The position numbers and the translations under genes are program-made. Under the pieces are notes generated by a model. It ran no database searches, was not told the DNA's origin, and saw only the letters and a list, made by a program, of their open reading frames with translations. 64,000 nt of DNA from Thermogutta terrifontis (GTDB lineage: Bacteria; Planctomycetota; Planctomycetia; Pirellulales; Thermoguttaceae): NCBI RefSeq assembly GCF_002277955.1, contig NZ_CP018477.1, positions 1,550,001 to 1,614,000 on the forward strand. The letters are read 5' to 3'. Shown here one piece after another: positions 1-16,440 of this stretch. Within the stretch, counting starts at the first letter, position 1; each line of letters opens with the position of its first letter.

Positions 1-204
1 GCGCGGTTAGAAATGGATTGGCAATCGCCGGCTGGAGGCCCGGCGGCTCCACCTGACCTCTGGCGGGACACCCTGTGCGGTGTCCTGGCGAATCATCTGG
101 AAGTGCAACGTGTAGCGTTGGAGACGCTTACCGAGGCCGCCGTGCAAAGCACTCTCCAATGGGCGCTAGATTGGCACATGACTGCGTTGAAAGAAAGTGT
201 GTAA
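1..204 (+). CDS. C-terminal end of an unidentified gene, cut by the window edge
   Basis: An open frame runs from the first base to a TAA at 202-204 and gives about 67 residues. The ATG at 13 is probably internal, since the frame is open upstream of it. The peptide is mostly helical in composition and ends in LDWHMTALKESV; I recognise no domain. It lies 13 bp before the RAMP gene on the same strand, so it is probably another member of the type III CRISPR operon, possibly the end of a cas10- or cmr3-like gene. That identity is inference from position only. Confidence 0.45.
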   Translation, partial: ARLEMDWQSPAGGPAAPPDLWRDTLCGVLANHLEVQRVALETLTEAAVQSTLQWALDWHMTALKESV

Positions 205-217
205 AGGAGCCAAAGCC

Positions 218-1252
218 ATGGCGAGTTATGAAAGGTTTGTCCAGATCGGCATTGCCCTGGACCCCATCCACGTGGGCACCGGGGTTGCTCGCATTGGTCG
301 GGTGGACCTGCCCATCGTTCGCGACCCGGTCACCCAAGTGCCCAAAATTCCCGGTTCCAGCCTGGCTGGGGTATACCGCACTTATGTAGCGATGCACTGT
401 GAAGAAGAGAGGCAGCGCAAGCAGGGAGCGTCTTCCTCCGGTCAACAATCTCAGGGGCGCCGGAAACCCTACTACCCTGACTGCGCCGGATTGGGGTTGG
501 ATAAGAACCGTGGCCACTGCCGTCAGCCCGATTGCCCCATCTGCACCGTCTTCGGCTTCGCCCGTGGGGCCGGCCAGGAGGGCGGTTTTGCCGGCTTGGC
601 CGCCTTCACCGACGCCCACGTGCTCCTCTTCCCGGTGCCCACTCGCCAGGGACCGATGTGGGTGAGCTGTCCCATGGCGCTTGACATGATCGGTTTTCCG
701 GTGAAGGGCGTATGCGACGACGCTGTCTATGTGGAAAATCCGGGAAATTGCCTCAACCTGGGCTGGCTCTTGCTGGAAACGCGAAGTTGCGCCCAGATGC
801 ACGATATCAAGACGACCTTCCAAAATCTCAAAATCCTCGACTTTATTCAGAACCGCCTGGCTCTCGTGCCCGACCGCCTTTTCGCCCACGTCGTCAACAG
901 CAACCTGGAGGTGCGCACTTCGGTCTCTATCAATCCGGCTACCGGTGCGGCAGAAGAGCGGGCACTTTTCTCGTATGAGGCTTTACCGCGTGGCACCGTG
1001 CTGGTGTGGGAGATCATCGCCAAGAATCCAGCGCACTTCAGCATAAATGGACAATCCATTACAGCCGTGTCCAGGCTGAATGATGTATACCAGAAGGCGG
1101 CACAGGCCCACGATTATCTCAAGCACCTGGGCATTGGTGGTATGGGCTCACGAGGTATGGGGCGTGTAGATGTGGTGTATGAGAGTCAACCCGTATCGCC
1201 TCGGACTGCCAACTGCAATTCACCTGCGAACCAGGGAGGAGGCCAGCCATGA
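218..1252 (+). CDS. Type III CRISPR RAMP protein, Cas7 group (Cmr4-like)
   Basis: This 344-residue protein should form part of the crRNA-binding backbone of a type III effector complex. It has an N-terminal RAMP strand followed by the turn PGSSLAGVYR, a Cys cluster (C-X11-C-X4-C-X2-C ending in CPICTVFG) like the zinc-binding segment of Csm3/Cmr4-type proteins, a DAHVLLFPVP stretch typical of Cmr4, and a C-terminal glycine-rich loop IGGMGSRGMGRV. I chose the ATG at 218 because AAGGAG lies 8 bp upstream; an in-frame ATG at 197 has no good ribosome binding site. It overlaps the next gene by ATGA. Family assignment as Cas7-type is firm; Cmr4 rather than Csm3 is likely but less sure. Confidence 0.8.
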   Translation: MASYERFVQIGIALDPIHVGTGVARIGRVDLPIVRDPVTQVPKIPGSSLAGVYRTYVAMHCEEERQRKQGASSSGQQSQGRRKPYYPDCAGLGLDKNRGHCRQPDCPICTVFGFARGAGQEGGFAGLAAFTDAHVLLFPVPTRQGPMWVSCPMALDMIGFPVKGVCDDAVYVENPGNCLNLGWLLLETRSCAQMHDIKTTFQNLKILDFIQNRLALVPDRLFAHVVNSNLEVRTSVSINPATGAAEERALFSYEALPRGTVLVWEIIAKNPAHFSINGQSITAVSRLNDVYQKAAQAHDYLKHLGIGGMGSRGMGRVDVVYESQPVSPRTANCNSPANQGGGQP

Positions 1253-1620
1253 GTAGCACTCAGATGACGAACCTGGACATCCGATGCGCCGAACTGGGGC
1301 GTGAGTTGGCGAATATTCCCAACATGGAAGAGAAAATCCTCAATGCGGCGCTCACAGTCCTGGAAGGACAGGGGCCGTATGCCATGTTCCTCTACCTAAA
1401 GGCCAAGCACAGCGCAGTAGCGGACCCAATCAGCGGGAAATCGCTCTCTTTCCTGAAAGATGTTTTCCATAACCGGCTCGACGGTGCAAATGACATCCTA
1501 GACGCCATAAAACGTTTGGCGGAGAACTTGGCCGATCTGCTTTTTGCCCGAGACCTCCTGCGCATGGCCCTTTCCTACGCGCGGTATCACCTGAAAGCGA
1601 GGGGAGATGGCTCATCATGA
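1249..1620 (+). CDS. Type III CRISPR small subunit (Cmr5/Cas11-like)
   Basis: A 123-residue, mainly helical protein between two RAMP genes, with ATGA overlaps on both sides. Size and position fit Cmr5, and the segment LEGQGPYAMFLYLKAK resembles the conserved Cmr5 stretch with a Gly, an aromatic residue and an FLKSK-like ending. In type III-B complexes this subunit lines the inner filament that contacts target RNA. The match is weak, as is usual for this fast-evolving family, so context carries much of the call. Confidence 0.65.
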   Translation: MSSTQMTNLDIRCAELGRELANIPNMEEKILNAALTVLEGQGPYAMFLYLKAKHSAVADPISGKSLSFLKDVFHNRLDGANDILDAIKRLAENLADLLFARDLLRMALSYARYHLKARGDGSS

Positions 1621-2519
1621 GTTGGACGATGTATCGCTGGATTTGGCAATTGAGGTCGCCTCTGCACCTTGGATGGCTTCCGGCCGGCGTCCTCAACCGG
1701 ACGCGACTGTATATCCCCGCCCGTGCTCTTTGGGGCGCCTTGACCGCGGAACTGGCACACAGGCAAACTTCTGACCCCCCGGATTACAAGACGGTTGGGG
1801 AAAAACTCCAGCAAGACGCCCGCTTCAGCTATCTGTTCCCCGCCGAGTTGGTGGACGGTGAATGGAAAGTGTGGCTTCCCCAATACCGGCAAGGGAAAGG
1901 GCTCGTGTGGCATCGGGAAGACGGAGAAGCTGAATTAGAAGATCGGCGCCTCCGGACGCTCCTTTTGAGCACTCGTCCGGGTACGGCCATTGCGCCCGAA
2001 TCCGACACCGCGGAGGAAGGCACTTTGCGGGGATTTGAGCTGATCAGTCCTTACTGGCAGGATGGAGATGGACAGTTGAAACCGGTGGCCATGGTGGGCT
2101 ACCTCTTTTGCAAGGACACACCTTTATTTGAGCAGGTCAAGGACATTGACGAAATCTTCGTCGGAGGGGATATCCGCTATGGCTTGGGCCACCTCCAGCG
2201 GGTATTCTGGGAGGAAGCAGTGGATCTTTTCGGCTCCACGGTGGATCTGAGCGACGATTCACCAAAAGTGCGCAGCACCAAGCGCGTACTGGCTCATACG
2301 TTACCCCGAAACGATTTAATACTGTTGGGAAGCATGGAATGCATCGCTGGCTGGGATACGGCGCAAGGTGGGCTCAAGAAGGGCGATTTGACCTGGGCGC
2401 CCGGGTCCTGCGCGGCCTGCTGCTCAAGAGAATACACCATCCGAAAGGATGGCTTATGGGAAGCCGAAAGAAGCCAATCCGCCGCCTCATCGAAACCGAT
2501 GAGATGCCCGTCGGGGTAA
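1617..2519 (+). CDS. Type III CRISPR RAMP protein, subtype uncertain (Cmr6/Cmr1/Csm5-like)
   Basis: This 300-residue protein opens with a RAMP fold: strand WQLRSPLHLGW, then the loop region LYIPARALWGALTAEL, and a later glycine-rich loop GGDIRYGLGHLQRV around residues 183-196. The C-terminal part has LTWAPGS and YTIRKDGLWE, a Trp-Pro-Gly-Ser plus Gly-Leu-Trp pairing seen in some type III RAMP proteins. It starts at an ATGA overlap with the small-subunit gene. The last 15 residues are Ser/Pro rich and unlike the rest, so the end may be slightly shortened or shifted. It should bind crRNA or cap the complex. No further cas gene follows before the helicase gene. Confidence 0.65.
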   Translation: MSWTMYRWIWQLRSPLHLGWLPAGVLNRTRLYIPARALWGALTAELAHRQTSDPPDYKTVGEKLQQDARFSYLFPAELVDGEWKVWLPQYRQGKGLVWHREDGEAELEDRRLRTLLLSTRPGTAIAPESDTAEEGTLRGFELISPYWQDGDGQLKPVAMVGYLFCKDTPLFEQVKDIDEIFVGGDIRYGLGHLQRVFWEEAVDLFGSTVDLSDDSPKVRSTKRVLAHTLPRNDLILLGSMECIAGWDTAQGGLKKGDLTWAPGSCAACCSREYTIRKDGLWEAERSQSAASSKPMRCPSG

Positions 2520-2958: not shown

Positions 2959-5900
2959 ATGCCCCAGATCTTCGACAACATCGAGAAGGATCTCCTTTCT
3001 GCTCTCACCCAGGCGATGGGCCTTTCGGAACGCGCGGACTTCTGCGTCGGATACTTCAACCTTCGCGGGTGGAAACAGGTGTCGTCCCTGGTTGACAGAT
3101 GGCCGGGCGGCGACGGTCACTGCTGTCGGATCCTGGTGGGGATGCAGCAGATGCCGCACGATCAGCTCAAGCAGGCATTGAATCCCGTCAGGGGCGAGCA
3201 GGAAACCGATCAGGCCACCGCCAATATGATGAAGCGCAAGCTAGCCCAGGAATTCCGCGACCAGTTAACTTTGGGCATTCCGACCAACGAGGACGAAGCG
3301 GCACTTCGCCATCTGGCGTCTCAGATCGAGGCCAAGAAGGTGGTGGTCAAGGTGTTCCTCCGCCACCCGCTCCACGCCAAACTCTACCTCCTCTTTCGGC
3401 AAGACCCGCTCAACCCCAAGATCGGCTACCTCGGCAGCAGCAACCTGACCCTGGCGGGGCTTTCCAAGCAGGGAGAGCTCAACGTGGACATCCTTGACCA
3501 CGATGCCTGCGATAAGCTCGCCAAGTGGTTCGAGGATCGTTGGAATGACCGGTTTTGCTGGGACATTTCCGAGGAACTCGTGAAGATCATCAACGAGAGT
3601 TGGGCACGGCCGGCGCCGATCCCTCCTTACCACATTTATCTCAAGATTGCCTACCATCTTTCCCAGGAGGCCAGGGCGGGGCTGAGCGAGTTCCGGATCC
3701 CGGCCGATTTTGGCAACAAGCTCCTCGAGTTCCAGAAGGCGGCCGTGAAGATCGCTGCACATCATCTCAATAAGCGCGGTGGCGTGATCCTCGGCGACGT
3801 CGTAGGGTTGGGCAAGACCCTCATGGCCACGGCATTGGCGCGTATCTTCGAGGACGACTACGGGCTGGAGACACTCATCATCTGCCCCAAGAACCTGGTG
3901 TCAATGTGGGAGGATTACCGGCAGCGGTATCGACTCCGGGCCAAGGTGCTGTCGATCACGCGGGTTCTCCAGGAACTTCCCAACCTGCGTCGTTTCCGCC
4001 TGGTCATTATCGACGAAAGTCATAACCTGCGCAATCGCGAGGGCAAGCGCTATCGTGCCATCGCGGAGTACATCGCTTCGAACGATAGCCGTGTCATCCT
4101 TTTGTCAGCCACGCCCTACAACAAGACCTATCTCGACCTTTCGAACCAGCTCCGGCTCTTCGTTGACGAGAATGAGGACATCGGCATCCGACCGGAAAGA
4201 CTTCTCCGGGAACTAGGGGAGACTGAATTCATCCGCCGACACCAATGCCCTGTCCGCTCGCTAGCAGCATTCGAGAAGAGCGAGTACGCCGACGACTGGC
4301 GTGAACTCATGCGCCTGTACCTGGTCCGCCGTACCCGGAGTTTCATCCAAGAGAACTATGCCAAGTACGATCCTGTTAACAACTCCAAATACCTCGAGTT
4401 TGAGGATGGCCAGCGAGTGTACTTCCCTGTGCGCGTGCCGAAGACGATTAAGTTCAAGATCAATCAGGGGGACCCCAAAGACCAGTACGCGCGGCTCTTC
4501 GCCGATGACGTTGTACAGACGGTGAACGACCTTAAGCTACCCCGCTACGCCCTGGGCAACTACCTGAAGCCGTCGCCCCGTAAGCCGCCCACGCCCGAAG
4601 AAGCAAAGGTTCTGGCCGACCTCTCACGCGCCGGAACACGTCTCAAGGGCTTTTGCCGGACGAACCTCTTCAAGCGTCTTGAAAGCAGTGGGCACTCGTT
4701 CATCCTATCGATCCAGCGTCACATCCTCCGCAATTACATTTATCTTTACGCCATTGAAAATGGGCTGCCGCTCCCCATCGGGACGCAGGATGTGGGACTA
4801 CTCGATACGTGGGCGAACGATCAGGACAACGACCTTTGGGAGGCGACGGCCGGGGACGATAATGAGGACGCGCCCGAGGACTTGGACAAGCCGACTTACG
4901 GCCCTCTTACTGAGGCTGAGGCCCGCAGCCGAGCGGCCGCTGTGTATGAAAGCTATGCTTCCCGATTCCGAGGCCGCTTCAAGTGGCTGAGGCCGGACCT
5001 TTTCGATCAGGCACTGGCCGAGGACCTGCGCAGGGACGCCAAGGCATTGATGGAGGTTCTGGATCGTGCCGGGACATGGGATCCCCAGCGGGATGCCAAA
5101 TTGGACGCACTCGTAACCCTTCTCACGAAGGAGCATCCGAAGGACAAGGTCCTTGTCTTCTCCCAGTTCGCCGATACGGTCGAGTACCTCCAACAACAGC
5201 TGAAGGCACGGGGTCTGGCAGCCGTCGCAGCGGTCACAGGGGCAACCGATGATCCGACATCTATCGCCTACCGTTTCAGCCCCGTGAGCAATGAACGGCG
5301 CGACTGTATCGCGCCAGAGGACGAACTGCGGGTTCTGCTGACCACGGACGTTCTGAGCGAAGGGCAGAACCTCCAGGATTGCAGCATCATCGTGAATTAT
5401 GACCTGCCCTGGGCCATCATCCGGCTCATCCAACGCGCTGGCCGCGTGGACCGCATTGGCCAGAAGTCGGACAAGATTGTCTGCTACTCGTTCCTTCCTG
5501 CGGACGGCGTGGAGCGAATCATCCGCCTCCGCGAGCGCGTGAGGGCGCGGCTGCGTGAGAACGCGGAGGTCGTGGGGGCGGACGAAGCGTTTTTTGAAGG
5601 CGAGAAGGACGACTTGCCACTCATTAACCTGTACAACGAGAAAGCGGGCATCCTTGACGAGGAGGAAGACACGGAAGTTGACCTGGCGTCCTACGCTTAT
5701 CAGATTTGGAAGAATGCCGTGGACCGGGACCCTTCCCTTGAAAAAATCATTTCCGCTATGCCCAATGTGGTGTACTCAACAAAGCCCCATCAACCGACAG
5801 CCGACAGGCCGGAAGGCGTGTTGGTCTACCTTCGGACGGCCGATGGGAACGACGCGCTGGCTTGGATCGACAGGCAAGGGAACAGTGTCACCGAGTCGCA

Positions 5901-6375
5901 ATTTGCCATTCTCAAGGCGGCCGAGTGCGATCCCGACACACCCGCCTTGCCGCGTGCCGGGGATCATCACGAGCTGGTCGCCAAGGGGGTCAGGCTGATT
6001 GTGGAAACTGAGAAGTCGGTCGGCGGGCAATTAGGCCGCCCATCGGGCGCGCGGTTTCGCACGTATGAGCGGCTCAAGAGGTATGCAGAGCAGGTCAAAG
6101 GAACGCTCTTTGAATCTTCCGAACTGCTGAAGGCCATCGAAGACATCTACAAATACCCCCTGCTCCAATCCGCCACCGATACACTCAACCGCCAGCTCAA
6201 AAGCGGCATCTCGGACCAAGACCTGGCGGCCCTCGTCATCGGATTGCGGCAAGACGGCCGCCTGTGCCGCGTGGAAGAGAAGGGCGAGTCAGGCGAACCC
6301 CAGGTCATTTGCTCGCTCGGACTCCGCAGACCGGAAAGCGACGCCGGAAAACCAGGAAACAAAGGAGAAGTGTGA
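2959..6375 (+). CDS. PLD-nuclease / SNF2-type helicase fusion, putative restriction subunit
   Basis: At 1138 residues this joins a phospholipase D-type nuclease half to a superfamily 2 SNF2-like motor. The PLD motif is H139-x-K141 with the downstream GSSNLT at 159-164. The motor has Walker A GDVVGLGKT (279-287), DESH (352-355), SAT (383-385), and in the second RecA domain VLVFSQFADT and QRAGRVDRIGQ. PLD nucleases act as metal-independent DNases in restriction enzymes such as BfiI, so the likely role is ATP-driven scanning and cleavage of unmodified DNA. It begins the six-gene operon and sits 4 bp before the methylase gene. PLD-helicase next to a large methylase recalls class 1 DISARM (DrmD/DrmMI) and the helicase/PLD genes of dpd islands, but drmA/drmB-like genes are absent. 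Confidence 0.85.
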   Translation: MPQIFDNIEKDLLSALTQAMGLSERADFCVGYFNLRGWKQVSSLVDRWPGGDGHCCRILVGMQQMPHDQLKQALNPVRGEQETDQATANMMKRKLAQEFRDQLTLGIPTNEDEAALRHLASQIEAKKVVVKVFLRHPLHAKLYLLFRQDPLNPKIGYLGSSNLTLAGLSKQGELNVDILDHDACDKLAKWFEDRWNDRFCWDISEELVKIINESWARPAPIPPYHIYLKIAYHLSQEARAGLSEFRIPADFGNKLLEFQKAAVKIAAHHLNKRGGVILGDVVGLGKTLMATALARIFEDDYGLETLIICPKNLVSMWEDYRQRYRLRAKVLSITRVLQELPNLRRFRLVIIDESHNLRNREGKRYRAIAEYIASNDSRVILLSATPYNKTYLDLSNQLRLFVDENEDIGIRPERLLRELGETEFIRRHQCPVRSLAAFEKSEYADDWRELMRLYLVRRTRSFIQENYAKYDPVNNSKYLEFEDGQRVYFPVRVPKTIKFKINQGDPKDQYARLFADDVVQTVNDLKLPRYALGNYLKPSPRKPPTPEEAKVLADLSRAGTRLKGFCRTNLFKRLESSGHSFILSIQRHILRNYIYLYAIENGLPLPIGTQDVGLLDTWANDQDNDLWEATAGDDNEDAPEDLDKPTYGPLTEAEARSRAAAVYESYASRFRGRFKWLRPDLFDQALAEDLRRDAKALMEVLDRAGTWDPQRDAKLDALVTLLTKEHPKDKVLVFSQFADTVEYLQQQLKARGLAAVAAVTGATDDPTSIAYRFSPVSNERRDCIAPEDELRVLLTTDVLSEGQNLQDCSIIVNYDLPWAIIRLIQRAGRVDRIGQKSDKIVCYSFLPADGVERIIRLRERVRARLRENAEVVGADEAFFEGEKDDLPLINLYNEKAGILDEEEDTEVDLASYAYQIWKNAVDRDPSLEKIISAMPNVVYSTKPHQPTADRPEGVLVYLRTADGNDALAWIDRQGNSVTESQFAILKAAECDPDTPALPRAGDHHELVAKGVRLIVETEKSVGGQLGRPSGARFRTYERLKRYAEQVKGTLFESSELLKAIEDIYKYPLLQSATDTLNRQLKSGISDQDLAALVIGLRQDGRLCRVEEKGESGEPQVICSLGLRRPESDAGKPGNKGEV

Positions 6376-6379
6376 ACAC

Positions 6380-9300
6380 ATGAAATTCGACGTTGCCGCC
6401 GTCAGGCAGTGCCTCAAGTCCTTCGACTTCAAGACCCTTTTTCGGGAACACCTGGGATGGGACAACCATCACGCGACGCTGGATGTCTCCGTCGAAGGAA
6501 ACGTGTACAGACTTACAGCAGTTGCTCAGAAACGGGGATTCGTCGCGTTCTTGTGCCCCACAATCCCCGACCGAGCCACTCGCCTCAAGATCGACCAACG
6601 GGTGACCAAATCCGTCCGCGAGCACTTTGTTATCTATACGGACGAGAAGGCCGGCGAGCAGGTCTGGCACTGGGTACGTCGCGAACCAGGGAAGCCTCTC
6701 GCCAGCCGGGACCATCGATTTCACATCCAGCAAACAGGTGACCCTCTCATTCAGAGGCTCAACCAAATTGCCGTGAGCCTCGAGGAAGAGGAGCAAATCA
6801 CCGTCGTGGATATAGCCGGCCGTGCCCGGGCCGCATTCGACGTGGACAAGGTCACCAAGCGGTTCTACGACCGCTTCAAGGCCGAACACGCAGCCTTCCA
6901 AAAACTCATCACAGGGATCCCCTCGGACGACGACCGCCGGTGGTACACGTCGCTCATGCTCAACCGACTGATGTTCGTGTACTTCATTCAAAAAAAGGGC
7001 TTTCTGGACGGCGACACGGACTACCTGCGCCATCGCCTCTCGATGGTACAGAAGATCCGAGGCAAGGACGAGTTCCACTCCTTCTACCGCTACTTCCTGC
7101 TGCGCCTGTTCCATGAAGGACTTGGTAAGTCCCCCGAGGAACGAAAGCTCGATCCCGAGTTTGAAAAACTGCTTGGCAGGGTGCCGTTTCTGAACGGCAG
7201 TTTCTTCGAGGTCCACGAATTGGAAGAACGCTGGCGCAACATCGACATCCCCGACCGTGCCTTTGAAAAACTCTTCGACTTCTTTGACCAGTATGCCTGG
7301 CACCTCGACGAGCGTCCCCTCCGCGCCGACAACGAGATCAACCCGGACGTGGTCGGCTACATCTTCGAAAAGTACGTCAACCAGAAGCAGATGGGGGCCT
7401 ACTACACTAAGGAGGACATCACGGAGTACATTAGCAAGAACACGGTCATTCCCTTCCTGTTCGAGGCCGCGAAGGCAAAGTGCGCTATCGCCTTCCAGCC
7501 CGATTCCGCCCTCTGGCGCCTCCTGCGCGACGACCCGGACCGGTATATCTATCCGGCCGTCCGCCATGGCGTCATTCGGGACGACGGCTCCGTCGTGCCG
7601 GAATCGGACCTGCCGGATTTCGTCCAGAAAGGAATGCACGACCCCCGGGCCCGGATGTTTGACAAACGCTACAACCTGGAGCAAGCCCCGGCGGGCGACC
7701 CAATCCGGCTTGTCACCGAGACCTGGCGCGAGTACGTCTATCGGCGCAACCGCTGTCTGGAAATCCGTGAAAAACTTCAGCGTGGCGGGGTGCACGAGAT
7801 CAACGACCTGATCACGCTGAATCTGGATATCTGGCAATTCGCACGGGATGCCATCATCAACTGCGAAGGGCCAGAACTTTTGCGTGCTTTTTGGAACGCA
7901 ATTCAGCACGTGAGCGTGCTCGACCCCACCTGCGGTTCCGGCGCCTTCCTCTTCGCGGCCCTCCGCATTCTGGAGACCCTTTACAGCGACTGCCTCGAGC
8001 GGATGGAACGATTCGTCGAGGACCTCGAGGGAAAGAAACATCACCCGGAACAGTTCAGCGACTTCAAGAAGGTTCTTCAGCAGATCGCCAAGCACCCCAA
8101 CGAACGCTACTTCATTCTCAAGTCCATCATCATCAACAACCTCTTCGGCGTGGATATCATGGAGGAGGCGGTCGAGATCTGCAAACTGCGTCTCTTCCTG
8201 AAACTCGTTGCCCAGGTCGAGACGATCGACCAAATCGAACCATTGCCGGACATCGACTTCAACATCCGCGCCGGGAACACGCTTGTCGGGTTTGCGACGC
8301 TCGACGATGTGCGAAAGGCGATGCAGGGACGATTCGACTTCGACAAGGCCGTCAAGCGTATTGAGGAGGAGGCCGAGTTGGTCGAGCGGGCGTTCAACCA
8401 GTTCCGCGCCCAGCAGACCACTCACGGTGGTTGGGTCACCGTCCAAGACAAGCAGGAGCTCCGGGAACGGCTGCGAAAACTAACCGACCAACTCGACCGC
8501 TTTCTGGCAGCCGAGTATGACATCTCAGAGAGTAAATACCGATCGCAAACGGCTTACGAGGAGGCATTCTCCAAGTGGAAGGCCAGCCACCAGCCCTTCC
8601 ACTGGTTCGCCGAGTTCTATGGCATTATGCAGGCGGGTGGATTCGATGTGGTGATTGGGAATCCACCGTATGTGGAGTATAGCAAAGTCAAGAAACAATA
8701 CACCGTTCTAGGATACGCAACGGAACAGTGTGGGAATCTCTATGCGTTCGTGATGGAGCGAAACGCGATTCTTGCGCACGCAAGCGGTAGAAGCGGCATG
8801 ATTGTGCCACACTCCTCCATTTGCACGGACCGCATGGCCCCGGTACAATCGCTGTTAAAAGACATGCCCAATGCGACTTGGATCTCAACATATTGCATTC
8901 GGCCGGCCAAGTTGTTCGTCGGGGTCGACCAGCGACTAGCAATCTACCTTACACTGCACAAGGCCGCGTCTCCTGCATTGGCCGCTTCGCGTTATCATCG
9001 CTGGCATGAGGACTTTCGGCCCTACTTATTTTCTTTGGTGCAATACGTCGATGTCGCGCTGGCGCGCTTCCCGAACTCTATACCGAAAGTTCACAGCGGA
9101 ATCGAAATTGTGCTGTGGTCAAAATTAGTTGACTTCCTTGCCCTGGGCAACGTAATCGTGCCCCGTAACGGTGCACTAGTGTATTTTCATAATGCCCCCA
9201 GATATTGGATCCGCGCCATGGACTTCCGCCCCTACTTCTGGAACGAGCGCGACGGCGAACAGATTTCAACGCAGGTCAAGACTCTCCGATTGCCGAACGG

Positions 9301-9700
9301 AACCGACGCCGCTGTCGTCGTGGCTGTTCTGAATAGTTCGCTTTTCTACTGGTGGTTCGTGATCCTTTCCGACTGCCGACATCTGAACATGCGCGAAATC
9401 GAGAACTTTCCACTTGGCCTGGACCGGATGTCGGAAGCGGTCAAAGCTGCGTTGGCGAAGCTGACCCGCGACCTCATGACCGACTTCAAGCGACACAAGA
9501 AGCGCAAGGAGTGCCAGTATCAGTCCACCGGCAAGGTGGTGTACGACGAGTTCTACCCAAAACACTCTAAGCCCATCATCGATAAGATCGACTGCGTCTT
9601 GGCCAAGCACTACGGCTTCACGGATGAAGAACTCGACTTCATCATCAACTATGACATCAAGTACCGCATGGGAGGCGACGCCGTGGGGGACGAAGACTGA
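6380..9700 (+). CDS. Eco57I-type N6-adenine DNA methyltransferase
   Basis: A 1106-residue class I methyltransferase. The SAM-binding motif is DPTCGSGAFLFAAL near residue 515 and the catalytic motif IV is GNPPYVEYSK near 760, which indicates amino-group methylation of adenine. About 500 residues precede the catalytic domain; they contain no PD-(D/E)XK nuclease motif that I could see, so cleavage is likely done by the PLD-helicase encoded 4 bp upstream. The region after NPPY is the likely target-recognition domain. In the operon it should mark self DNA. Length and layout fit the large methylases of DISARM and BREX-like systems and Eco57I-type enzymes; assignment to a named system is not possible from sequence alone. 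Confidence 0.88.
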   Translation: MKFDVAAVRQCLKSFDFKTLFREHLGWDNHHATLDVSVEGNVYRLTAVAQKRGFVAFLCPTIPDRATRLKIDQRVTKSVREHFVIYTDEKAGEQVWHWVRREPGKPLASRDHRFHIQQTGDPLIQRLNQIAVSLEEEEQITVVDIAGRARAAFDVDKVTKRFYDRFKAEHAAFQKLITGIPSDDDRRWYTSLMLNRLMFVYFIQKKGFLDGDTDYLRHRLSMVQKIRGKDEFHSFYRYFLLRLFHEGLGKSPEERKLDPEFEKLLGRVPFLNGSFFEVHELEERWRNIDIPDRAFEKLFDFFDQYAWHLDERPLRADNEINPDVVGYIFEKYVNQKQMGAYYTKEDITEYISKNTVIPFLFEAAKAKCAIAFQPDSALWRLLRDDPDRYIYPAVRHGVIRDDGSVVPESDLPDFVQKGMHDPRARMFDKRYNLEQAPAGDPIRLVTETWREYVYRRNRCLEIREKLQRGGVHEINDLITLNLDIWQFARDAIINCEGPELLRAFWNAIQHVSVLDPTCGSGAFLFAALRILETLYSDCLERMERFVEDLEGKKHHPEQFSDFKKVLQQIAKHPNERYFILKSIIINNLFGVDIMEEAVEICKLRLFLKLVAQVETIDQIEPLPDIDFNIRAGNTLVGFATLDDVRKAMQGRFDFDKAVKRIEEEAELVERAFNQFRAQQTTHGGWVTVQDKQELRERLRKLTDQLDRFLAAEYDISESKYRSQTAYEEAFSKWKASHQPFHWFAEFYGIMQAGGFDVVIGNPPYVEYSKVKKQYTVLGYATEQCGNLYAFVMERNAILAHASGRSGMIVPHSSICTDRMAPVQSLLKDMPNATWISTYCIRPAKLFVGVDQRLAIYLTLHKAASPALAASRYHRWHEDFRPYLFSLVQYVDVALARFPNSIPKVHSGIEIVLWSKLVDFLALGNVIVPRNGALVYFHNAPRYWIRAMDFRPYFWNERDGEQISTQVKTLRLPNGTDAAVVVAVLNSSLFYWWFVILSDCRHLNMREIENFPLGLDRMSEAVKAALAKLTRDLMTDFKRHKKRKECQYQSTGKVVYDEFYPKHSKPIIDKIDCVLAKHYGFTDEELDFIINYDIKYRMGGDAVGDED

Positions 9701-10386
9701 TGAACCGCTCGCGTCCGGCCAGAGACATCCGTCGCCCCATCCGCGTGGAGCGGAATGACGACGCCTATCCCGCTTCGGTCAAGGCGTTCTTCGGCGAACG
9801 CGCCCCGGAGTGCATTTTCCTTCAGGGGAACCCTGAGCTCCTCCAGAGGGATTCGCTGGGGCTGTTCTGCTCGATCAAGTGCCCGGGCAGTATCATTCTC
9901 AAAACCTACGATGTGGCGAAGGCGTTGCGGGACTCAGGTATTCCCGTCATCGGGGGGTTCCATACGCCGATGGAAAAAGAGTGTCTCGCTCTTCTCCTGC
10001 GTGGGACCCAGCCCATCGTAATCTGCCCGGCGCGCGGCTTGGAGAGAATCCGACTGGCGCGGGAAGTCAAGGAGGGCGTTCAATCCGGTCGCGTCCTGCT
10101 TGTCTCCATGTTCGGGACCGCGCATCGTCGGGCCAGGGCTGAGCTGGCGGACCAGCGGAACCGTTTCGTGGCGGCTCTGGCAGCCAGGATTTTCGTGTCC
10201 CACGCCGCGCCGGGCGGAAAAACCGAGGCTCTCTGCCGCGAGATCATCACGCTGGGCAAGCCCCTTTTCACCATCGACGCCCCGGAGAACACCAATCTTC
10301 TTGCTTTGGGCGCGAAGGCGCTGACGCTCGAGGAAGTCTTTGTGCTTGGGGAGGAGGACTCGCGACAACGTGAGCGACACGGGTGA
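9700..10386 (+). CDS. DprA/Smf-like SLOG-domain protein
   Basis: This 228-residue protein keeps the Rossmann-like SLOG core of DNA-processing protein A: GGFHTPMEKECLALLLRG around residue 86, then PARGLERIRLAREV, LLVSMFG, RNRFVAALAARIFVSHAAPG and a final segment with N-x2-LLALGA. DprA binds single-stranded DNA and loads RecA in transformation; SLOG domains elsewhere bind nucleotides as sensors. There is no C-terminal winged helix of full DprA. Its ATG overlaps the methylase stop by one base (TGATG), so the two are translationally coupled. I infer a ligand or DNA sensing role in the defence operon rather than a role in transformation. Confidence 0.75.
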   Translation: MNRSRPARDIRRPIRVERNDDAYPASVKAFFGERAPECIFLQGNPELLQRDSLGLFCSIKCPGSIILKTYDVAKALRDSGIPVIGGFHTPMEKECLALLLRGTQPIVICPARGLERIRLAREVKEGVQSGRVLLVSMFGTAHRRARAELADQRNRFVAALAARIFVSHAAPGGKTEALCREIITLGKPLFTIDAPENTNLLALGAKALTLEEVFVLGEEDSRQRERHG

Positions 10387-10392
10387 GGTGAA

Positions 10393-12393
10393 GTGTGGGC
10401 AGCTCCGTCGTTCTACGCTGGGAAGAGGCCAACCGACATGACGCTCCATCCCTCCGTGCTCACGGACAGCTTGCACGACGACCTGCACAAGGATTTCAAG
10501 GCCGACTATAATCTCGCCAATCCGCTCTTCAATATGAGCGAGTGGGGCGGCCAACGGCTCACCGACCATCCCCGCCGGAAGTACAGCGAGTCCATGTGTG
10601 GACGGACGGTGACATACCAGTTAACGCCCGTTTCATGGGCCTCGGAGCATACTTGTCGGGAGTGCAAAGAGATGCCGTCGGGTCAAAAGGATTTGATCAT
10701 TCTTGGGTGCTCGGCCACGAAGCGTCCTGTTTCAGGGAAGGTGCCGGCGATCTACCTTTACGACGGCCCTGCCTTCCGCGTCCTGCGTAGCTATTTGAGG
10801 AAGTACCGGTGGCCGGAGAGGCTGTCCCTGGCGATCCTATCCGCAAAGTACGGCCTGATTGGTGGCTTGTCCCCGATTGCCAATTACAATCAGAGGATGT
10901 CTGCGCAGCGTGCCGACGAACTTTCTCCCCAGGTAACGACAATATTGACGCGGTGGGCAAGTCAGCACGGTAGGATCTTTTTGCTTTTGGGGAAGGATTA
11001 CGCGCGTGCCATCGACGGTGTATTGAATAATCGCCCCGGTGTTACTCTTCCAGAGGGTGGCATTGGGAGAAAGCTTGCCGCGTTAAAGCATACGCTGGAG
11101 AAACTGGGACGCGTCGAACACCCGGGGGTGCGCAAACCGGAGCGCATCGATCGGCCTTTATATTTTTTACCAGACTGGGACGACTTTATTGATTCCGAAT
11201 TCGATTTCCAAACGGAGTGTTTCTCAGCAAATCGGCGTTCTGATCGACGCGAATTGCATGTAAGCCAGCTCGTTCATCCGCTAAAACTGTGCGACGGTAT
11301 CCTCGTCAGCCTGGCACAGCATATGACCAGCAAGGGGCTTTTGAAGAAGTTTGCCCCTGACGATGATCAGGCACTTGCTCCGTCGCTTGTTCGAGAACAC
11401 TTCAAGCTGCGTCCAGACCAATGGGCCTTCGGTGACTGTGGCGCTTTTTCCTATGTAGGCGAAGAGACGCCGCCCATCTCGGTAGAACATGCAGTGGCAC
11501 TGTACGACCTTTACGGCTTTGACTTGGGCGCAAGCGTTGATCACATTCCAGTCAGTGAACTGCGAACTGCCAGCGGGAAGCGCCGGCTGACACGAACTGA
11601 GCAGCTTGCACGTATCCGCCTGACACGCCAAAACGCTGAGCAGTTCCTCCGGCTTCACCAGGAGTGGGAGGCACAATTCATCCCTGTTGGTGTGATCCAA
11701 GGAGTCACGCCAGACGACTATGCCAAGCAAGTACCCGATTACGTGGACATGGGGTACTCCTACTTGGCGATCGGTGGTCTGGTGCCACGTCCTGACGCGG
11801 AGGTGCTGGAGATAGTCAAGGCGGTTGCGCATGCTGCGAGCCGGTTGCGCAAGAGGCCTTGGATACACCTATTGGGCATTTTTCGCCCGAAGCTCCAAGC
11901 GTTGTTTCGGGAGTACGGGATCGCCAGTTTCGACAGTGCAACATATTTTCGAAAGGCCTGGTTGCGGTCTGACCAAAACTACTTAGGGGCGGACGGAAGA
12001 TGGTACGCGGCAATTCGCGTTCCGCCCCTTGATGACCCACGGACCCGCAGGCGGCTTCAAACCTGCGGACAGAGCGAGGATCGGTTACGGAAACTAGAAA
12101 AAGCAGCGTTACGATCGTTGGACGCTTACGAGCGCCGAGAGATGAGCGTTGAGCGCGTGCTTCAGGCCGTGCTTGCCTACGATCGATTGCTTCTCCGAAC
12201 GCATTCTGACACCACCGAGTTGGCTGAAAAATACCGGGAGACTTTAACCTCGCGGATTTGGGAACGTTGTTCCTGCCGAATCTGCAAGGAGTTGGGGATA
12301 AACGTCGTGGTGTTCCGCGGTGTGAATCGTAATAAGCGGCGCGGGGCCCACAACACCTTGATGCTTTACCAAATGGTTTGCTGTGGCAAATAG
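10393..12393 (+). CDS. dpdA: DpdA-like transglycosylase (DNA 7-deazaguanine insertion) with fused N-terminal domain
   Basis: A 666-residue member of the tRNA-guanine transglycosylase superfamily, of the DpdA branch that exchanges guanine for preQ0 in DNA. The C-terminal barrel has GDCGAFSY (Asp348, the equivalent of the TGT Asp in DSGGF), DHIPV, IQGV, IGGLVPRP, IHLLGI, and FDS with Asp514 at the nucleophile position. The zinc site C-x-C-x2-C-x21-H is complete at C626, C628, C631 and H653. Residues 97-240 form an extra domain opening with LIILGCSATKRPV, resembling DUF6884; ahead of it lies a Cys group (C69, C88, C91). Start is GTG at 10393, 6 bp after the previous stop; an ATG at 10438 is an alternative. 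No preQ0 synthesis genes are in the window, so the base would come from elsewhere. Confidence 0.82.
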   Translation: MWAAPSFYAGKRPTDMTLHPSVLTDSLHDDLHKDFKADYNLANPLFNMSEWGGQRLTDHPRRKYSESMCGRTVTYQLTPVSWASEHTCRECKEMPSGQKDLIILGCSATKRPVSGKVPAIYLYDGPAFRVLRSYLRKYRWPERLSLAILSAKYGLIGGLSPIANYNQRMSAQRADELSPQVTTILTRWASQHGRIFLLLGKDYARAIDGVLNNRPGVTLPEGGIGRKLAALKHTLEKLGRVEHPGVRKPERIDRPLYFLPDWDDFIDSEFDFQTECFSANRRSDRRELHVSQLVHPLKLCDGILVSLAQHMTSKGLLKKFAPDDDQALAPSLVREHFKLRPDQWAFGDCGAFSYVGEETPPISVEHAVALYDLYGFDLGASVDHIPVSELRTASGKRRLTRTEQLARIRLTRQNAEQFLRLHQEWEAQFIPVGVIQGVTPDDYAKQVPDYVDMGYSYLAIGGLVPRPDAEVLEIVKAVAHAASRLRKRPWIHLLGIFRPKLQALFREYGIASFDSATYFRKAWLRSDQNYLGADGRWYAAIRVPPLDDPRTRRRLQTCGQSEDRLRKLEKAALRSLDAYERREMSVERVLQAVLAYDRLLLRTHSDTTELAEKYRETLTSRIWERCSCRICKELGINVVVFRGVNRNKRRGAHNTLMLYQMVCCGK

Positions 12394-12402
12394 GTGGCAA
12401 CG

Positions 12403-14799
12403 ATGTGCCAATACAGTTATCGACAGTTCGTCCAACTGGTTCGGGCAGCAATACCGCACCGCTTCGGCAATCAGTGGCTCAACCAACAGCAGGAACAGGC
12501 CGTAAGCACGCCGCTAACGCCCCCAACCTTCATTGTTGCGGGTCCTGGCACAGGCAAGACTACCGTCCTCGTACTTCGACTACTGAAGCATATATTCGTT
12601 GACGGTGTGCGGCCAGAGCAGATCATCGCGACGACATTTACCCGCAAGGCTGCTGGCGAACTGCGGTCTCGAATTTTATCTTGGGGCTATGCCGTCCTCG
12701 ACTACGCTATCCAGCATGCCCCGAATCAGAGTTGCCAGCGGTGGCTTAGCGGGCTTGACATGACCCAGGTCTATACGGGCACGCTGGACTCGTTGGCCGA
12801 AGAGTTTCTCATCAGGGAGAGACAGCCAGGGCAAATCGTACCTGCTACCGCGGGGGAATACCTGGCAACCAGCCTTATGCTTCGGCAAGGCCTTTTTCCC
12901 CAGAACCGGCATCGGGACCAAGACTTGGAACAACTTTTGAAGAACTTAGGCTTGCTGCCCGCGTACGCTCCAAGTATTGGCTCGAAGGTTTCAGCGCTTA
13001 TGAGCTTCGCAGATCGCGTACGACACGATGATGTGGATTTGCAGACATATCGGCAACGAACTGCAGGACACAGAGTGCTTTGCGACGCGATAAGTGATTA
13101 CCTAGCCTACTTGCAAAGCAACCATCTGGCGGATTTCGCACGCCTAGAGGAGTTGCTCCTCCAACGCTTGCAGGCTGGCAATCTGGGGCAGATGTTAGGT
13201 AACATACGAGTCTTACTCGTTGACGAGTTTCAGGACACGAATTACCTGCAGGAGCAAATCTATTATGAAATTTGTCGCCAGACTGGAGCGAGTCTCACCG
13301 TTGTTGGAGATGATGACCAGTCCGTCTACCGTTTCCGTGGAGCCACGGTCGAAATATTCTCTAACTTCCCGAACCGCATTGCTTCGGCGTTGGGCCCGAA
13401 CTGGCAGCCCAGAATTGTGTATTTACACGAAAACTATCGTTCTACCAGACGAATTGTCGAGTTTTGTCAACGCTTCGCGGAGTGTGATCCAGTTTACCAA
13501 GCTGTCCGCGTAAGGGGAAAACCTTCATTAGTCGCTTCTGCTCCTCACGCTACGCTGCCGGGGAGCAACGTCCCCGTGCTTGGCATGTTCCGGGATGATA
13601 TAGAAACGCTTGCTACGGATCTGGCGCAGTTTCTCTGGGACACTTTCCGCGGAGGTGGCCGGGTCATCGGCTATCATGGAGGCTCTTACCACATTCAGCC
13701 TGCCCAGGGCGGCGACTTCGGTGACGCCGTTTTACTCGCGCACTCTGTACGGGAACAGCGGCCACCATCACAGCCACAGCAGCCACCTCAAAAGCGATTG
13801 CCGCTGCTCTTGCGGCAGGAGTTAGAAAACCGCAAAGTGCCCGTTTTCAACCCGCGAGGACGGAGGCTCGATGAAATCCCGGACATTCGTAGGCTCCTTG
13901 GCCTTGCCTTGCTTTGTATTGATCCTGGATTAAGGATTATGAACGGAATTCAGACGATGACCCAAAACGCTCGGAATGCCATAAACCAGTGGGTCCAGGA
14001 CGCGCAGAGCTTCATGCGAGGAAATCCACCACCCGGCGGTCTTGAGACATTTATCCGAGACTGGCAGAACCGGCAGCCAAGCGCCGCGTCAAGAATGACC
14101 AAATGGCCCAGCGAATGGCCACTTTTGGAGTTGCTGTTTACCCTGACCACATGGTTTCCATTTCTTCAGACGGATCCGGAAGGGCAGGTTTACCTAGAGG
14201 CAGTAGCGCGCACGGTAGCGGAAGCTTCCCAGTTCGCGGGCTATGGCTCCCATATCGTTTTCAAGCCTCCGCATGAGCAACGGTCAGTACAAGAGGCGAT
14301 TCGCACCGTGTTTGAACCGATTGCGCAAGGTGCCATTGACGTTAACGAGGAGATCATGCCCCATGTCCCGAGAAACTACTTTCAGATCATGACCATTCAT
14401 CAAGCCAAAGGGTTGGAATTCCCTCTGGTGATCGTGGACGTCGGCAGCGATTTTCGGATGAATCATCATGCCCAACGGCGTCTACGGGCGCCTGACGGGC
14501 CCGACTCGGTACACGAGGTGGAAGATGACGTTGCCCCGTGTTCGCCGGTGGGCAGTCTCCGCACGGCTCGCTCAGGCATAGACCGAGCATGGGACGACCT
14601 GAGGCGTCTCTACTTCGTGGCTTTTAGCCGAGCGCAGAATGTTCTCCTGCTTGTGGGGTTGACCAGTGTAATCCGAGAGCCAAATCCCGTGCCCGCGATT
14701 GGGTGTGGGGCACTCAGCGGTGGGGGAAGCTATATGCAATTCGTACCTGCGTCAAGATGGGATCCGTCGATGGGACCGGACGTCGTGGCACTTATTTGA
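12403..14799 (+). CDS. UvrD/Rep-family superfamily 1 DNA helicase
   Basis: A 798-residue SF1A helicase. Motifs in order are Walker A AGPGTGKTT, motif Ia TTFTRKAAGELRSR, Walker B VDEFQDTN, motif III GDDDQSVYRFRGA, motif IV HENYRSTRRI, motif V TIHQAKGLEFPLVIVDVG, and motif VI FVAFSRAQNVLLL. It should unwind DNA 3' to 5'. I chose ATG 12403 with TAGGTGG just upstream; a GTG at 12394 directly after the dpdA-like stop is the alternative. It is followed 13 bp later by an AddB-like nuclease gene, so the two probably work as a helicase-nuclease pair. The C-terminal region after motif VI is short and lacks a nuclease domain of its own. Confidence 0.85.
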   Translation: MCQYSYRQFVQLVRAAIPHRFGNQWLNQQQEQAVSTPLTPPTFIVAGPGTGKTTVLVLRLLKHIFVDGVRPEQIIATTFTRKAAGELRSRILSWGYAVLDYAIQHAPNQSCQRWLSGLDMTQVYTGTLDSLAEEFLIRERQPGQIVPATAGEYLATSLMLRQGLFPQNRHRDQDLEQLLKNLGLLPAYAPSIGSKVSALMSFADRVRHDDVDLQTYRQRTAGHRVLCDAISDYLAYLQSNHLADFARLEELLLQRLQAGNLGQMLGNIRVLLVDEFQDTNYLQEQIYYEICRQTGASLTVVGDDDQSVYRFRGATVEIFSNFPNRIASALGPNWQPRIVYLHENYRSTRRIVEFCQRFAECDPVYQAVRVRGKPSLVASAPHATLPGSNVPVLGMFRDDIETLATDLAQFLWDTFRGGGRVIGYHGGSYHIQPAQGGDFGDAVLLAHSVREQRPPSQPQQPPQKRLPLLLRQELENRKVPVFNPRGRRLDEIPDIRRLLGLALLCIDPGLRIMNGIQTMTQNARNAINQWVQDAQSFMRGNPPPGGLETFIRDWQNRQPSAASRMTKWPSEWPLLELLFTLTTWFPFLQTDPEGQVYLEAVARTVAEASQFAGYGSHIVFKPPHEQRSVQEAIRTVFEPIAQGAIDVNEEIMPHVPRNYFQIMTIHQAKGLEFPLVIVDVGSDFRMNHHAQRRLRAPDGPDSVHEVEDDVAPCSPVGSLRTARSGIDRAWDDLRRLYFVAFSRAQNVLLLVGLTSVIREPNPVPAIGCGALSGGGSYMQFVPASRWDPSMGPDVVALI

Positions 14800-14812
14800 A
14801 AGGAGTTACATC

Positions 14813-15991
14813 ATGGCTCTTGGGCGAAGGGAACTGCCTTTCGAGGTACCACGCTACAGCTTAACAGGCGACATTCTGTCTTTTCAGCGCTGTCCGTTGC
14901 AGTATCGTTACTACAACGGAACTTCGCTGCCACCTTCCAGACCGGTCCAACTCTGGACCGGTGAGTTCATACACGGGGTCTTGGAGGAGGCGTACCGCCA
15001 CTGGCAGCAGCATCGTCCCCCATTTCCTTGGCCATGCACTCTCACACCATGGCCGCCTCAGCCACTGCCTAGCCAAAGGGCACCAAATGACATCGGAGTG
15101 ATCGGCGATGCTGTGGAAGCCAGGCTGGCCGCCGATGGAAAGCGACCTCGCAATACCAAAGCCCGTGACATTGCGTACCAACGTGCCACAGAAGCCATTA
15201 ACCTCCTGGGTCCCGATCTATTTCCCCTCATTACCGATGCCGAGCGACGCATCTCAGGGACACGTCCTATGCCCCAGTTGCCTCAGCAGCACCCCGCCCG
15301 GGGTGATCGGTACGAGTTGACAGGAGTGGTTGACGTCATATCACATGTCAGCATGACCGCAAACCCCCAAAATAGACTGGTCCGGACGCTGCAAACACGG
15401 TGTCCGGGCCTCAACCCGCCGTTTGAGATCATCATTGACTACAAAGCAGAGCGGCGTCCTCCGATCAACGATCCTCGGCGCCGGCACCACGAATGGCAGG
15501 TCCAGACGTACGCTTGGCTTCTCACGAGGCTGCCCCAGTCAACGCCGGTGGGTGCGGCGATGATCGTCTACGTAAACGAACTTGTTCCCTCGCAGGAAGA
15601 CTTTCAGACTCTTCAGCAAGAGGTGAGAAACGGCACAACGGATGTGATTCCTTCGCGTGGGAGCGCTGACTACTACGCCATCACCCGGTGGCAACCTGGT
15701 GCCGCCATTCCCAGCCTTTCCAACGACTACCGGATCGAGCGAGCTATTTGGATCGTTGCCGTATCCCAGGCCAGTTTGACAAACGCGGTTGCGCAAATTG
15801 ACACCGTAGTTGCGCAAATCGAGACATCCGCCTGTAACGAACATAATTCAGGGAACATCCTGTCAAACTGGGCGGCAACTGGCTTGGATCGAGATTGCGT
15901 CGCCTGCGACTTTAAACACTTTTGCCCAAATCCCGCACCGCGCAGTTCAAGTGGTAGCAGGCGTCTCACCGCACCGCCTGCTCCCGGCTAA
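14813..15991 (+). CDS. PD-(D/E)XK nuclease with Cas4/AddB-type iron-sulfur cysteines
   Basis: A 392-residue RecB-family nuclease. The active-site elements are GVVDVI, IIDYKAER (Asp-x-Lys pair) and the helix motif QVQTYAWLL. One Cys near the N-terminus (LSFQRCPLQYRYY) and three near the end in the pattern C-x2-C-x5-C (CVACDFKHFC) match the 4Fe-4S staple of AddB and Cas4. The start ATG at 14813 has AAAGGAG upstream, directly after the helicase stop at 14799; a longer in-frame start at 14699 would overlap the helicase. As the last gene of the operon it probably degrades DNA unwound by the UvrD-like helicase. Good conservation of all motifs suggests an active enzyme. Confidence 0.85.
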   Translation: MALGRRELPFEVPRYSLTGDILSFQRCPLQYRYYNGTSLPPSRPVQLWTGEFIHGVLEEAYRHWQQHRPPFPWPCTLTPWPPQPLPSQRAPNDIGVIGDAVEARLAADGKRPRNTKARDIAYQRATEAINLLGPDLFPLITDAERRISGTRPMPQLPQQHPARGDRYELTGVVDVISHVSMTANPQNRLVRTLQTRCPGLNPPFEIIIDYKAERRPPINDPRRRHHEWQVQTYAWLLTRLPQSTPVGAAMIVYVNELVPSQEDFQTLQQEVRNGTTDVIPSRGSADYYAITRWQPGAAIPSLSNDYRIERAIWIVAVSQASLTNAVAQIDTVVAQIETSACNEHNSGNILSNWAATGLDRDCVACDFKHFCPNPAPRSSSGSRRLTAPPAPG

Positions 15992-16440
15992 GTCAGGGCA
16001 GGGCAACGGTGTGATCCTCACACACCACCCGGAATTCTCGCCTGAGAAACAGGCCGACAGGCACGTCTGCTTGTTCAAACGGCGTTACACCCGCGCTTCG
16101 CCGATAAAGCTTACCGCAGCCAGTACGACTTCATCGACGGCTTCGCCCGCCGCCTCCGCCACACGCGCCCTACGCCTATTGCAAAACGCCTTCTCCTGCC
16201 TGCTTCGGCTGGCGTGCTGGCACGCAGCGGCGCACAAAATCTGTCAAGGGCGGCATGAATTTGTGCGCCATTTTCTTGTGTGAGTCGTAACCTCTTGTCT
16301 GTAATCGACTTGCGCAGAATTTCTGCGGCGCACAAAATCGGCCCGGTAACACCAGGAATTTGTGCGCGCGAATCTTCCGGTAGACTCCAAGAGAAAGACG
16401 ATGCAGGCCACTCTTTCAACACGTATGGAGAGGTATTCGC
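15992..16440 (+). promoter_or_regulatory. Gene-poor junction with two paired inverted repeats
   Basis: No gene is supported here. The sequence GGCGCACAAAAT occurs at 16229 and 16327, each followed about 28 bp later by its near-reverse complement GAATTTGTGCGC (16257 and 16356). The two 41-42 bp units start 98 bp apart. They lie just upstream of the excisionase-like gene and the replication genes, so they may be an operator, Xis-binding sites or a replication origin. A codon-biased open frame at about 16045-16258 lacks a start and may be a decayed gene end. Confidence 0.55.

Follow-up and report, generated by a model that had tools for sequence, protein, structure and literature searches.

A candidate compact 7-deazaguanine restriction-modification unit joined to an unrelated methylase-helicase unit in Thermogutta terrifontis

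Six genes lie close together in the 64,000-nucleotide stretch of the Thermogutta terrifontis genome analysed here (hereafter the window; contig NZ_CP018477.1, positions 1,550,001 to 1,614,000), all on the + strand of a genome of 4,810,751 bases assembled as a single contig. A preliminary description had named their products as a PLD-SNF2 helicase, an Eco57I-type methylase, a DprA-like SLOG protein, a DpdA-like transglycosylase, a UvrD-like helicase and an iron-sulfur nuclease; family scans confirmed all six families and their common strand, and the two motor-nuclease pairs which that description proposed stand as well. It had further joined the six into one defence system with double marking of self DNA. 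We found instead that they form two unrelated three-gene units, placed end to end and joined by recombination (Table 1). Unit A is a defence pair of a PLD-SNF2 protein and an Eco57I-type methylase, to which a SLOG protein may be added. Unit B (10672-15991), whose trio of genes encodes a DUF6884-DpdA fusion, a UvrD helicase and an Fe-S nuclease, is probably (at about 0.7) a compact 7-deazaguanine (Dpd-type) restriction-modification system. No described system with the six-gene set was known to the authors of the preliminary description, and neither that set nor the trio was found described in the open-access literature that was searched.

The six genes and the joint between them

The two units are regarded as separate because they recur apart, because a scar lies at their joint, because DNA similarity to the nearest relative ends there and because their third-position G+C differs. 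Within the stretches of DNA examined, which extend only 1.2 kb (L026) and 1.4 kb (L030) upstream of DpdA in two cases, unit B occurs without unit A in 9/9 other loci and unit A without unit B in 7/7 others; co-occurrence of the six genes elsewhere was the test that the preliminary description had itself proposed. The nine loci were reached through DpdA, seven in a genome collection, one in a viral collection and one (G363, locus L049) among 392 Planctomycetota genomes, eight of which had a DpdA match, four with the trio (G000, G354, G363 and G512) and four of other kinds. The gene order of unit B is kept in all ten loci, the window included; the helicase and nuclease of L031 and L049 are divergent, and the nuclease still matches PF12705. 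P0001 and P0003 were not seen in the examined stretches of the other unit B loci, and the other methylases near L031 and L032 have weak partial similarity to P0002 (24-26%). When 246 genomes of the order were searched with P0002 (E 1e-30), five had the methylase, the host among them. In the four others (L051-L054) a PLD-SNF2 protein is adjacent or within ~2 kb, and P0003-P0006 were not seen at these loci; the methylase of L054 shares only ~28% identity, and that of L052 is partial. The Synechocystis plasmid pSYSX carries the unit A pair at 54% and 49%, with two small genes between them; slr6095 was considered as the gene of its methylase and rejected, being a type I subunit according to the literature. 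The order PLD-SNF2, methylase, SLOG is kept in two viral-collection contigs, L061 (77, 61 and 50%) and L062 (51, 40 and 35%). The SLOG gene is optional, being present in 2/7 other A loci.

When window positions 1-30000 were compared by blastn (E 1e-5) with the nearest relative of unit B, L025 from Desulfobacterales, only two pieces aligned, at 73-74% (10659-10934 and 11152-15994), and this similarity begins 13 bases before dpdA and stops 3 bases after the nuclease gene. Third-position G+C is 0.737, 0.737 and 0.755 in the A genes and 0.613, 0.587 and 0.601 in the B genes. The mechanical frame of DpdA opens at GTG 10393; its residues 24-66 match PDB 3khk (E 1.5e-4) and the PADLOC model MTase_I (E 2.2e-11), and residues 24-72 match a separate 344-residue frame just before DpdA in L025, which looks HsdM-like by eye. 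We take this HsdM-like remnant, recognised by its similarity, to be a recombination scar. The other trio loci align with the frame from residue 60 (L025), 73 (L031) or 92-101 (the remaining seven), and the DpdA start that agrees with these relatives is ATG 10672. With that start the gap between the SLOG and DpdA genes is 285 bp, and the gaps of at most 16 bp throughout that were first described do not hold. A DpdA with a methylase-derived N-terminus was considered and rejected, as none of the nine other trio loci has anything in its DpdA frame that corresponds to residues 1-59. The SLOG protein was likewise rejected as a partner of DpdA: its gene stands after that of the methylase in L061 and L062, and it had no plasmid match. 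The other SLOG matches among the 246 genomes were one at 48% on L067, a contig of 3.5 kb that offers no context, and, at 22-27%, the distant DprA-like proteins of L068 and L069.

The most likely start of the nuclease is ATG 14813, preceded by AAAGGAG, and not the overlapping frame from 14699; this leaves 13 bp between the UvrD and nuclease genes. Predicted terminators were as frequent as in shuffled sequences (14 vs 14.1). Promoter-like sites numbered 9 vs 4.8 in shuffles; the site at 10484-10512 does no more than match the consensus and was disregarded.

Table 1. Features of the window discussed in the text
Feature	Coordinates	Strand	Product	Support
Unit A gene 1, P0001	2959..6375	+	PLD nuclease domain and SNF2 helicase, 1138 aa	PF13091, PF00176, PF00271
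Unit A gene 2, P0002	6380..9700	+	Eco57I-type N6-adenine methylase, 1106 aa	PF07669 E 2e-25
Unit A gene 3, P0003	9700..10386	+	SLOG/DprA-like protein, 228 aa	PF02481 E 2.1e-10
Joint, putative scar	10393..10671	+	Type I (HsdM-like) methylase remnant, motif IV region, in frame with DpdA	
Unit B gene 1	10672..12393	+	DpdA with an N-terminal DUF6884 (DpdC-like) domain, 573 aa counted from ATG 10672	NF041059, 7UI4, PF21818
Unit B gene 2	12394..14799	+	UvrD/Rep-type superfamily 1 helicase, 801 aa	PF00580 E 2.5e-48
Unit B gene 3, P0006	14813..15991	+	Fe-S PD-(D/E)XK nuclease, RecB/Cas4/AddB type, 392 aa	PF12705 E 1e-12 (scored on the longer frame)
Cmr4, Cmr5 and Cmr3 genes	197-2519			PADLOC family scan
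Integrase	19855-21825			Inside the putative element, next to tRNA

Composition and relatives of unit B

The DpdA part of unit B scores 348.4 bits with the curated NCBIfam model NF041059 (cut-off 200), and its best PDB match by sequence is the DNA preQ0 insertase 7UI4 (E 4.7e-68), which is also ahead when the predicted fold is compared (predicted local distance difference test score, pLDDT, 78.7; E 1.9e-28 vs 1.7e-8 for the best tRNA enzyme). The active-site and zinc residues FGDCGAF, SFDSA and CxCxxC..H are kept in 9/9 loci checked, L049 lying outside this check, and also in an alignment of nine rows with starts chosen by hand. In a midpoint-rooted tree of 26 rows, the ten DpdA proteins of the trio group in a single clade (100/100, stem 1.74). 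A DUF6884 domain (PF21818, 40.4 bits, cut-off 30) makes up the N-terminal ~160 residues; in it, CxxxK is present in 9/9 loci checked and Leu-Ser-Ala is invariant in the nine rows. CxxxK and SAxxG are also contained in DpdC proteins, five of five tested DpdC proteins match PF21818, all below its cut-off, and a profile comparison of the domain with eight DpdC proteins gave 91.4% probability (E 8.9e-7) with CxxxK and SAxxG paired. The predicted fold of the domain (pLDDT 87.1) has the YaaA structure 5caj as its top match (E 4.1e-4). In the literature, DUF6884 is related to YaaA/PF03883 (PMC11701544) and is given as 'e.g., dpdC' (PMC11888242). From profile and model comparisons, the domain may be a remote relative of DpdC. 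A DpdC-type fusion would not be unique to the trio clade, because cyanobacterial and Paenibacillus DpdA proteins (~690-715 residues) have a similar N-terminal part, detected with a DpdC hidden Markov model (HMM) in L065, L077, L078 and L081; DUF6884 is also over its cut-off in L065 and L077, and L076 falls below the limit of the HMM.

The UvrD helicase has a Walker A motif, GPGTGKT, and DEFQDT. Alignments of 12 rows were made for it and for the nuclease, in which I.DYK, Q229/Y233 and four cysteines are invariant; these cysteines (C27, C362, C365 and C371), the same in 12/12 sequences including that of the window, uphold the iron-sulfur reading given at the outset. The pair resembles AddAB/RecBCD and the Cas4-type Fe-S nucleases in joining a UvrD/RecB-like motor to a RecB-family nuclease with a C...CxxCx5C cluster, but differs from AddAB/RecBCD in consisting of two small separate proteins. 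Curated models are far under their cut-offs for the helicase (PcrA 128 vs 911, AddA 115 vs 708), and the Cas4 model gives 24.5 vs a cut-off of 65 for the nuclease. Gabija also has a UvrD-like helicase, and GajB models are the best PADLOC matches of the unit B helicase (117.6 bits); the partners in unit B are, however, another kind of nuclease and DpdA, and GajA is not among the matches listed for the nine window proteins scanned (the best 25 for four of them). A PDB search with the nuclease found nothing, and the nuclease had no match in annotated phages.

A host QueC (201.4 bits, cut-off 150.3) was counted as a supply of preQ0, and QueC is over its cut-off in the host and in 9/12 genomes or records searched; it was not found in the viral record. 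QueD is over its cut-off within 1 kb of the nuclease gene in 4/10 loci (L027, L029, L031 and L049). The DpdB model PDLC02811 had a match in none of nine unit B genomes, several of which are metagenome-assembled genomes (MAGs) and three (G000, G065 and G363) single-contig assemblies; it had two matches in the control G144. DpdB is dispensable in some clusters (PMC12839542). Unit B resembles the Dpd islands (dpdA-K) in having a predicted DpdA DNA insertase and a domain that may belong to the DpdC superfamily, in the preQ0 precursor genes near part of its loci and in keeping modification and restriction parts separate. It differs in lacking a DpdB match, in that its DpdC-like part is shorter and fused to DpdA, and in that a single UvrD helicase and a single Fe-S nuclease of the PD-(D/E)XK kind stand where the islands have DpdD-K. 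To our knowledge, which of dpdD-K cuts is not settled. None of dpdD-dpdK is over its curated cut-off among the nine window proteins, the rest of the genome not having been searched for them, and two plasmid islands (L079 and L081) have DpdJ/DpdK and no UvrD-nuclease pair in the stretch read. Known dpd islands comprise up to eleven genes (PMC11888242), and the restriction arm of unit B is absent from the Dpd descriptions in the literature searched. BREX-related capture systems with a tRNA-guanine transglycosylase (TGT; PMC12839542) have likewise brought a TGT into a defence locus that lacks DpdB and DpdC, and self-marking is proposed for them; they differ in having PglZ, HerA/FtsK, DUF6079, STAND-NTPase and DUF4007, none of which is among the matches listed for the nine window proteins.

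Linkage of this kind of nuclease to DpdA was followed from the nuclease itself. A plasmid search with P0006 alone returned four records, 4/4 with a DpdA-type gene; three cover at least 80% of the nuclease, and the Halobaculum record covers 70% at 26% identity. In Bradyrhizobium pB41S5 (L063) the nuclease and UvrD genes are divergent from dpdC-dpdB-dpdA-dpdB-queE-queD-queC; an unannotated Rhizobium plasmid (L064) has UvrD-nuclease-dpdC-dpdB-dpdA-dpdB, followed by queE, queD and queC as read by eye; in Picosynechococcus (L065) a fusion DpdA lies ~9 kb from the pair; and a plasmid of the haloarchaeon Halobaculum (L095, 5878-16488) has a UvrD-like helicase and the nuclease beside queC-folE-queE and a PTPS gene. 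The 968-residue DpdA of the last (HMM E 4.4e-55) also matches DpdC (E 3.8e-5), by eye in its C-terminal part, the reverse domain order. A profile search of viral contigs found two loci, one on the known contig of L032 and one new, where a free DUF6884 protein, UvrD and nuclease stand in a row (L092:7168-11185); on the same 86-kb viral-collection contig, ~18 kb away, DpdA lies beside a second nuclease (L096:428-2650). All five new replicons reached through the nuclease, four plasmids and one viral-collection contig, thus have DpdA, a count that leaves out G000, G512, G354, G652 and the L032 contig, which are rows of the search profile. Profile searches of the 392 Planctomycetota genomes (E 1e-10) and of 277 genomes of the phylum of G652 (E 1e-20), with the best few candidates per genome scored, gave strong matches only in four known trio genomes and missed the divergent nuclease of G363. 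Close relatives of the window nuclease were seen only with DpdA. When 26 DpdA loci were scanned, UvrD and nuclease were present in 10/10 trio loci and 4/16 others, three of the latter (L063-L065) having been fetched because of the nuclease. The DpdA genes of L064 and L082 are close and the pair was seen only in L064, so the arm appears modular.

Several neighbours were recorded in passing. Genes similar to dGTPase lie upstream of DpdA, UvrD and nuclease in two unrelated loci (L064:2683-4020 and L025:6711-8105; 222 and 38 bits). An unannotated gene of 317-343 residues stands beside unit B in three loci and in one dpdABC locus (L028:8967-9920, L030:6761-7723, L049:14915-15913 and L056:10928-11959), with ~30-40% identity between copies; it had no match in Pfam (one copy, the same gene in L022), PADLOC (four copies) or NCBIfam (three copies). 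A QatC-like protein (L028:4452-5834, scanned as L022:8564-9946; 205.7 bits, below the cut-off of 280) lies ~4 kb upstream of unit B.

Unit A and the genomic setting

Unit A is an already known sort of methylase-helicase-PLD set. The PLD domain of P0001 has HAK at 139 and GSSN at 159, and the protein scores 150 bits with the PADLOC model 'HKD+Snf2'. P0002 has the motifs DPTCGSG and NPPY and passes as type IIG by PADLOC PDLC03628 (1160.8 bits over residues 1-1100); no nuclease domain is among its Pfam matches. The unit partly resembles DrmD, DrmC and DrmMI of class 1 DISARM (SNF2, PLD and N6 methylase), but PLD and SNF2 are in one chain, and P0001 scores 134.7 bits vs a DrmD cut-off of 610. DISARM requires DrmA and DrmB with DrmC/DrmD/DrmM, a combination not found in unit A: DrmB and the curated DrmA model had no match among the nine window proteins scanned (for P0001, the best 25 of 52 PADLOC matches listed), and DrmA appears only as a 56-bit helicase match among the matches listed. 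DpdE models gave P0001 75 bits in PADLOC and 108 vs a cut-off of 500 in NCBIfam.

Window positions 21783-21804 and genome positions 1543989-1544010 (L024:3989-4010) carry an exact direct repeat, 22 bases long, of the 3' end of tRNA-Val(tac). Inside the putative element so bounded, next to the tRNA, are the integrase and genes for DUF3631 and Prim-Pol, and together these outline a putative 27.8-kb integrative element that holds both units as well as the Cmr genes. An element of this kind would account for unrelated defence units standing side by side. When an empty site was sought in three genus mates, matches to a dispersed repeat dominated the result of the flank query, and tRNA-length matches were obtained in G002 and G003. 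The dispersed repeat is ~190 bases long (window ~22307-22495); the flank query matched the host genome 95 times and a genus mate 88 times, and most of the matches listed fall within these bases.

Proposed mechanism and its alternatives

The reading of unit B as a restriction-modification system is supported by its boundaries against the nearest relative, its recurrence, its conserved catalytic motifs, the host QueC, the lack of a DpdB match and the linkage of the nuclease to DpdA. In the mechanism that we propose, the host queuosine pathway would supply preQ0, and the DpdA domain would swap guanine in host DNA for preQ0 without DpdB. The fused DUF6884 domain might then convert preQ0 to the amide (ADG) or place the base, and the UvrD helicase and Fe-S nuclease together would degrade DNA without the mark, in the motor-nuclease manner of AddAB/RecB. 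DNA as the substrate, the amide as the product, unmarked DNA as the target and protection against phages are what we infer for unit B.

A number of observations weigh against this reading. In the DUF6884 domain, L027 and L031 have R for the final G of LSAxxG, the YaaA fold match has a template modelling (TM) score of 0.49, a three-sequence DpdC HMM (E 1e-3) missed the domain in all ten trio loci, and its length is ~160 residues vs ~310 in DpdC. As to precursor supply, QueC is a weak match in the Desulfobacterales MAG and below its cut-off at a contig edge in G021, a genome of the same family as the host; the two QueD-like matches of the host (81.4 and 66.9 bits) are below the curated cut-off of 89.25; and QueD was not seen beside the trio in 6/10 loci, the contig of L026 ending there. 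As to linkage, profile A3, used in the genome and viral searches, contains trio nucleases, so that its recovery of trio genomes does not count as independent support; G328 and G558, each with a weak and partial nuclease match of ~60 residues, had no DpdA match; and DpdA loci fetched regardless of the nuclease have the pair in 1/13 cases (L076), L044 and L045 being short stretches. A plasmid search with the divergent L076 nuclease gave ten records, seven of which were looked at: DpdA is present in Scytonema (L076) and Halobaculum; a relative of the L076 pair directly follows the DISARM genes drmA and drmC in Nostoc pNPM2 (L098:3514-13002); a helicase-nuclease protein in Nitrosomonas p2 and a UvrD-type gene with nuclease in Peribacillus stand beside site-specific methylases; and single helicase proteins in Natronococcus and Salinigranum had no DpdA by annotation within 12 kb, although the Salinigranum plasmid has a TGT at another place. 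UvrD/nuclease pairs of the wider kind are therefore not exclusive to DpdA, and seem to be a restriction arm that serves modification systems in general.

Alternative explanations were weighed on the same data. That all six genes are one system, marking self DNA by both adenine methylation and 7-deazaguanine, seems highly improbable to us: their single strand and close order and the plausible capacity of each half to modify and cut DNA speak for it, but no other locus of either unit has the other (0/9 and 0/7 in the stretches examined), and the HsdM-like scar, the 285-bp gap, the end of DNA similarity at the joint and the differing third-position G+C all oppose it. Adenine methylation by unit A and deazaguanine marking by unit B may both take place in the cell, as two systems. 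TGT-fold enzymes have several substrates, and a CBASS-associated TGT is said to act on tRNA or protein, which makes action of unit B on tRNA or protein conceivable; this is very unlikely, however, since the curated DpdA model and 7UI4 match best, with tRNA enzymes far behind, and since DpdA is accompanied by a helicase of DNA type and a nuclease of the RecB family.

A somewhat less improbable alternative, though still an unlikely one, is a modification-dependent (type IV-like) or invader-marking system, in which DpdA or DUF6884 marks or recognises foreign DNA and the helicase and nuclease destroy the marked DNA. The free DUF6884 protein directly before UvrD and nuclease in L092, with DpdA ~18 kb away, points to a possible reader role for DUF6884 within the nuclease arm, and base flipping is proposed for a DUF6884 protein (PMC11701544). 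The two rhizobial plasmids, in contrast, join the same kind of pair to dpdC-dpdB-dpdA-dpdB and preQ0 genes, the self-marking Dpd arrangement. It is also improbable that unit B protects the DNA of a carrying mobile element or phage, not that of the host, from host restriction: the unit lies in the putative integrative element and has relatives on plasmids and two viral-collection contigs, but mere protection needs no helicase-nuclease pair, and three B loci are in single-contig, chromosome-size assemblies (G000, G065 and G363).

At a little less than even odds, unit B may represent a second class of restriction-modification based on 7-deazaguanine in DNA, needing no more than three genes. A single polypeptide would both insert the base and finish it, DpdB being absent, and the restriction arm would consist entirely of a UvrD helicase and an Fe-S nuclease. 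This class would extend over several bacterial phyla and the haloarchaea and include DpdA-DpdC fusions of opposite domain order, and helicase-nuclease pairs of the same kind would serve DISARM and methylase systems as an exchangeable restriction arm. Surveys requiring dpdA and dpdB, like that of PMC11888242, would miss unit B. The three-gene version would make the discrimination of deazaguanine-marked from unmarked DNA testable with few purified proteins, and, if the reading is true, guanine-exchange and methylation systems would have a modular restriction arm in common.

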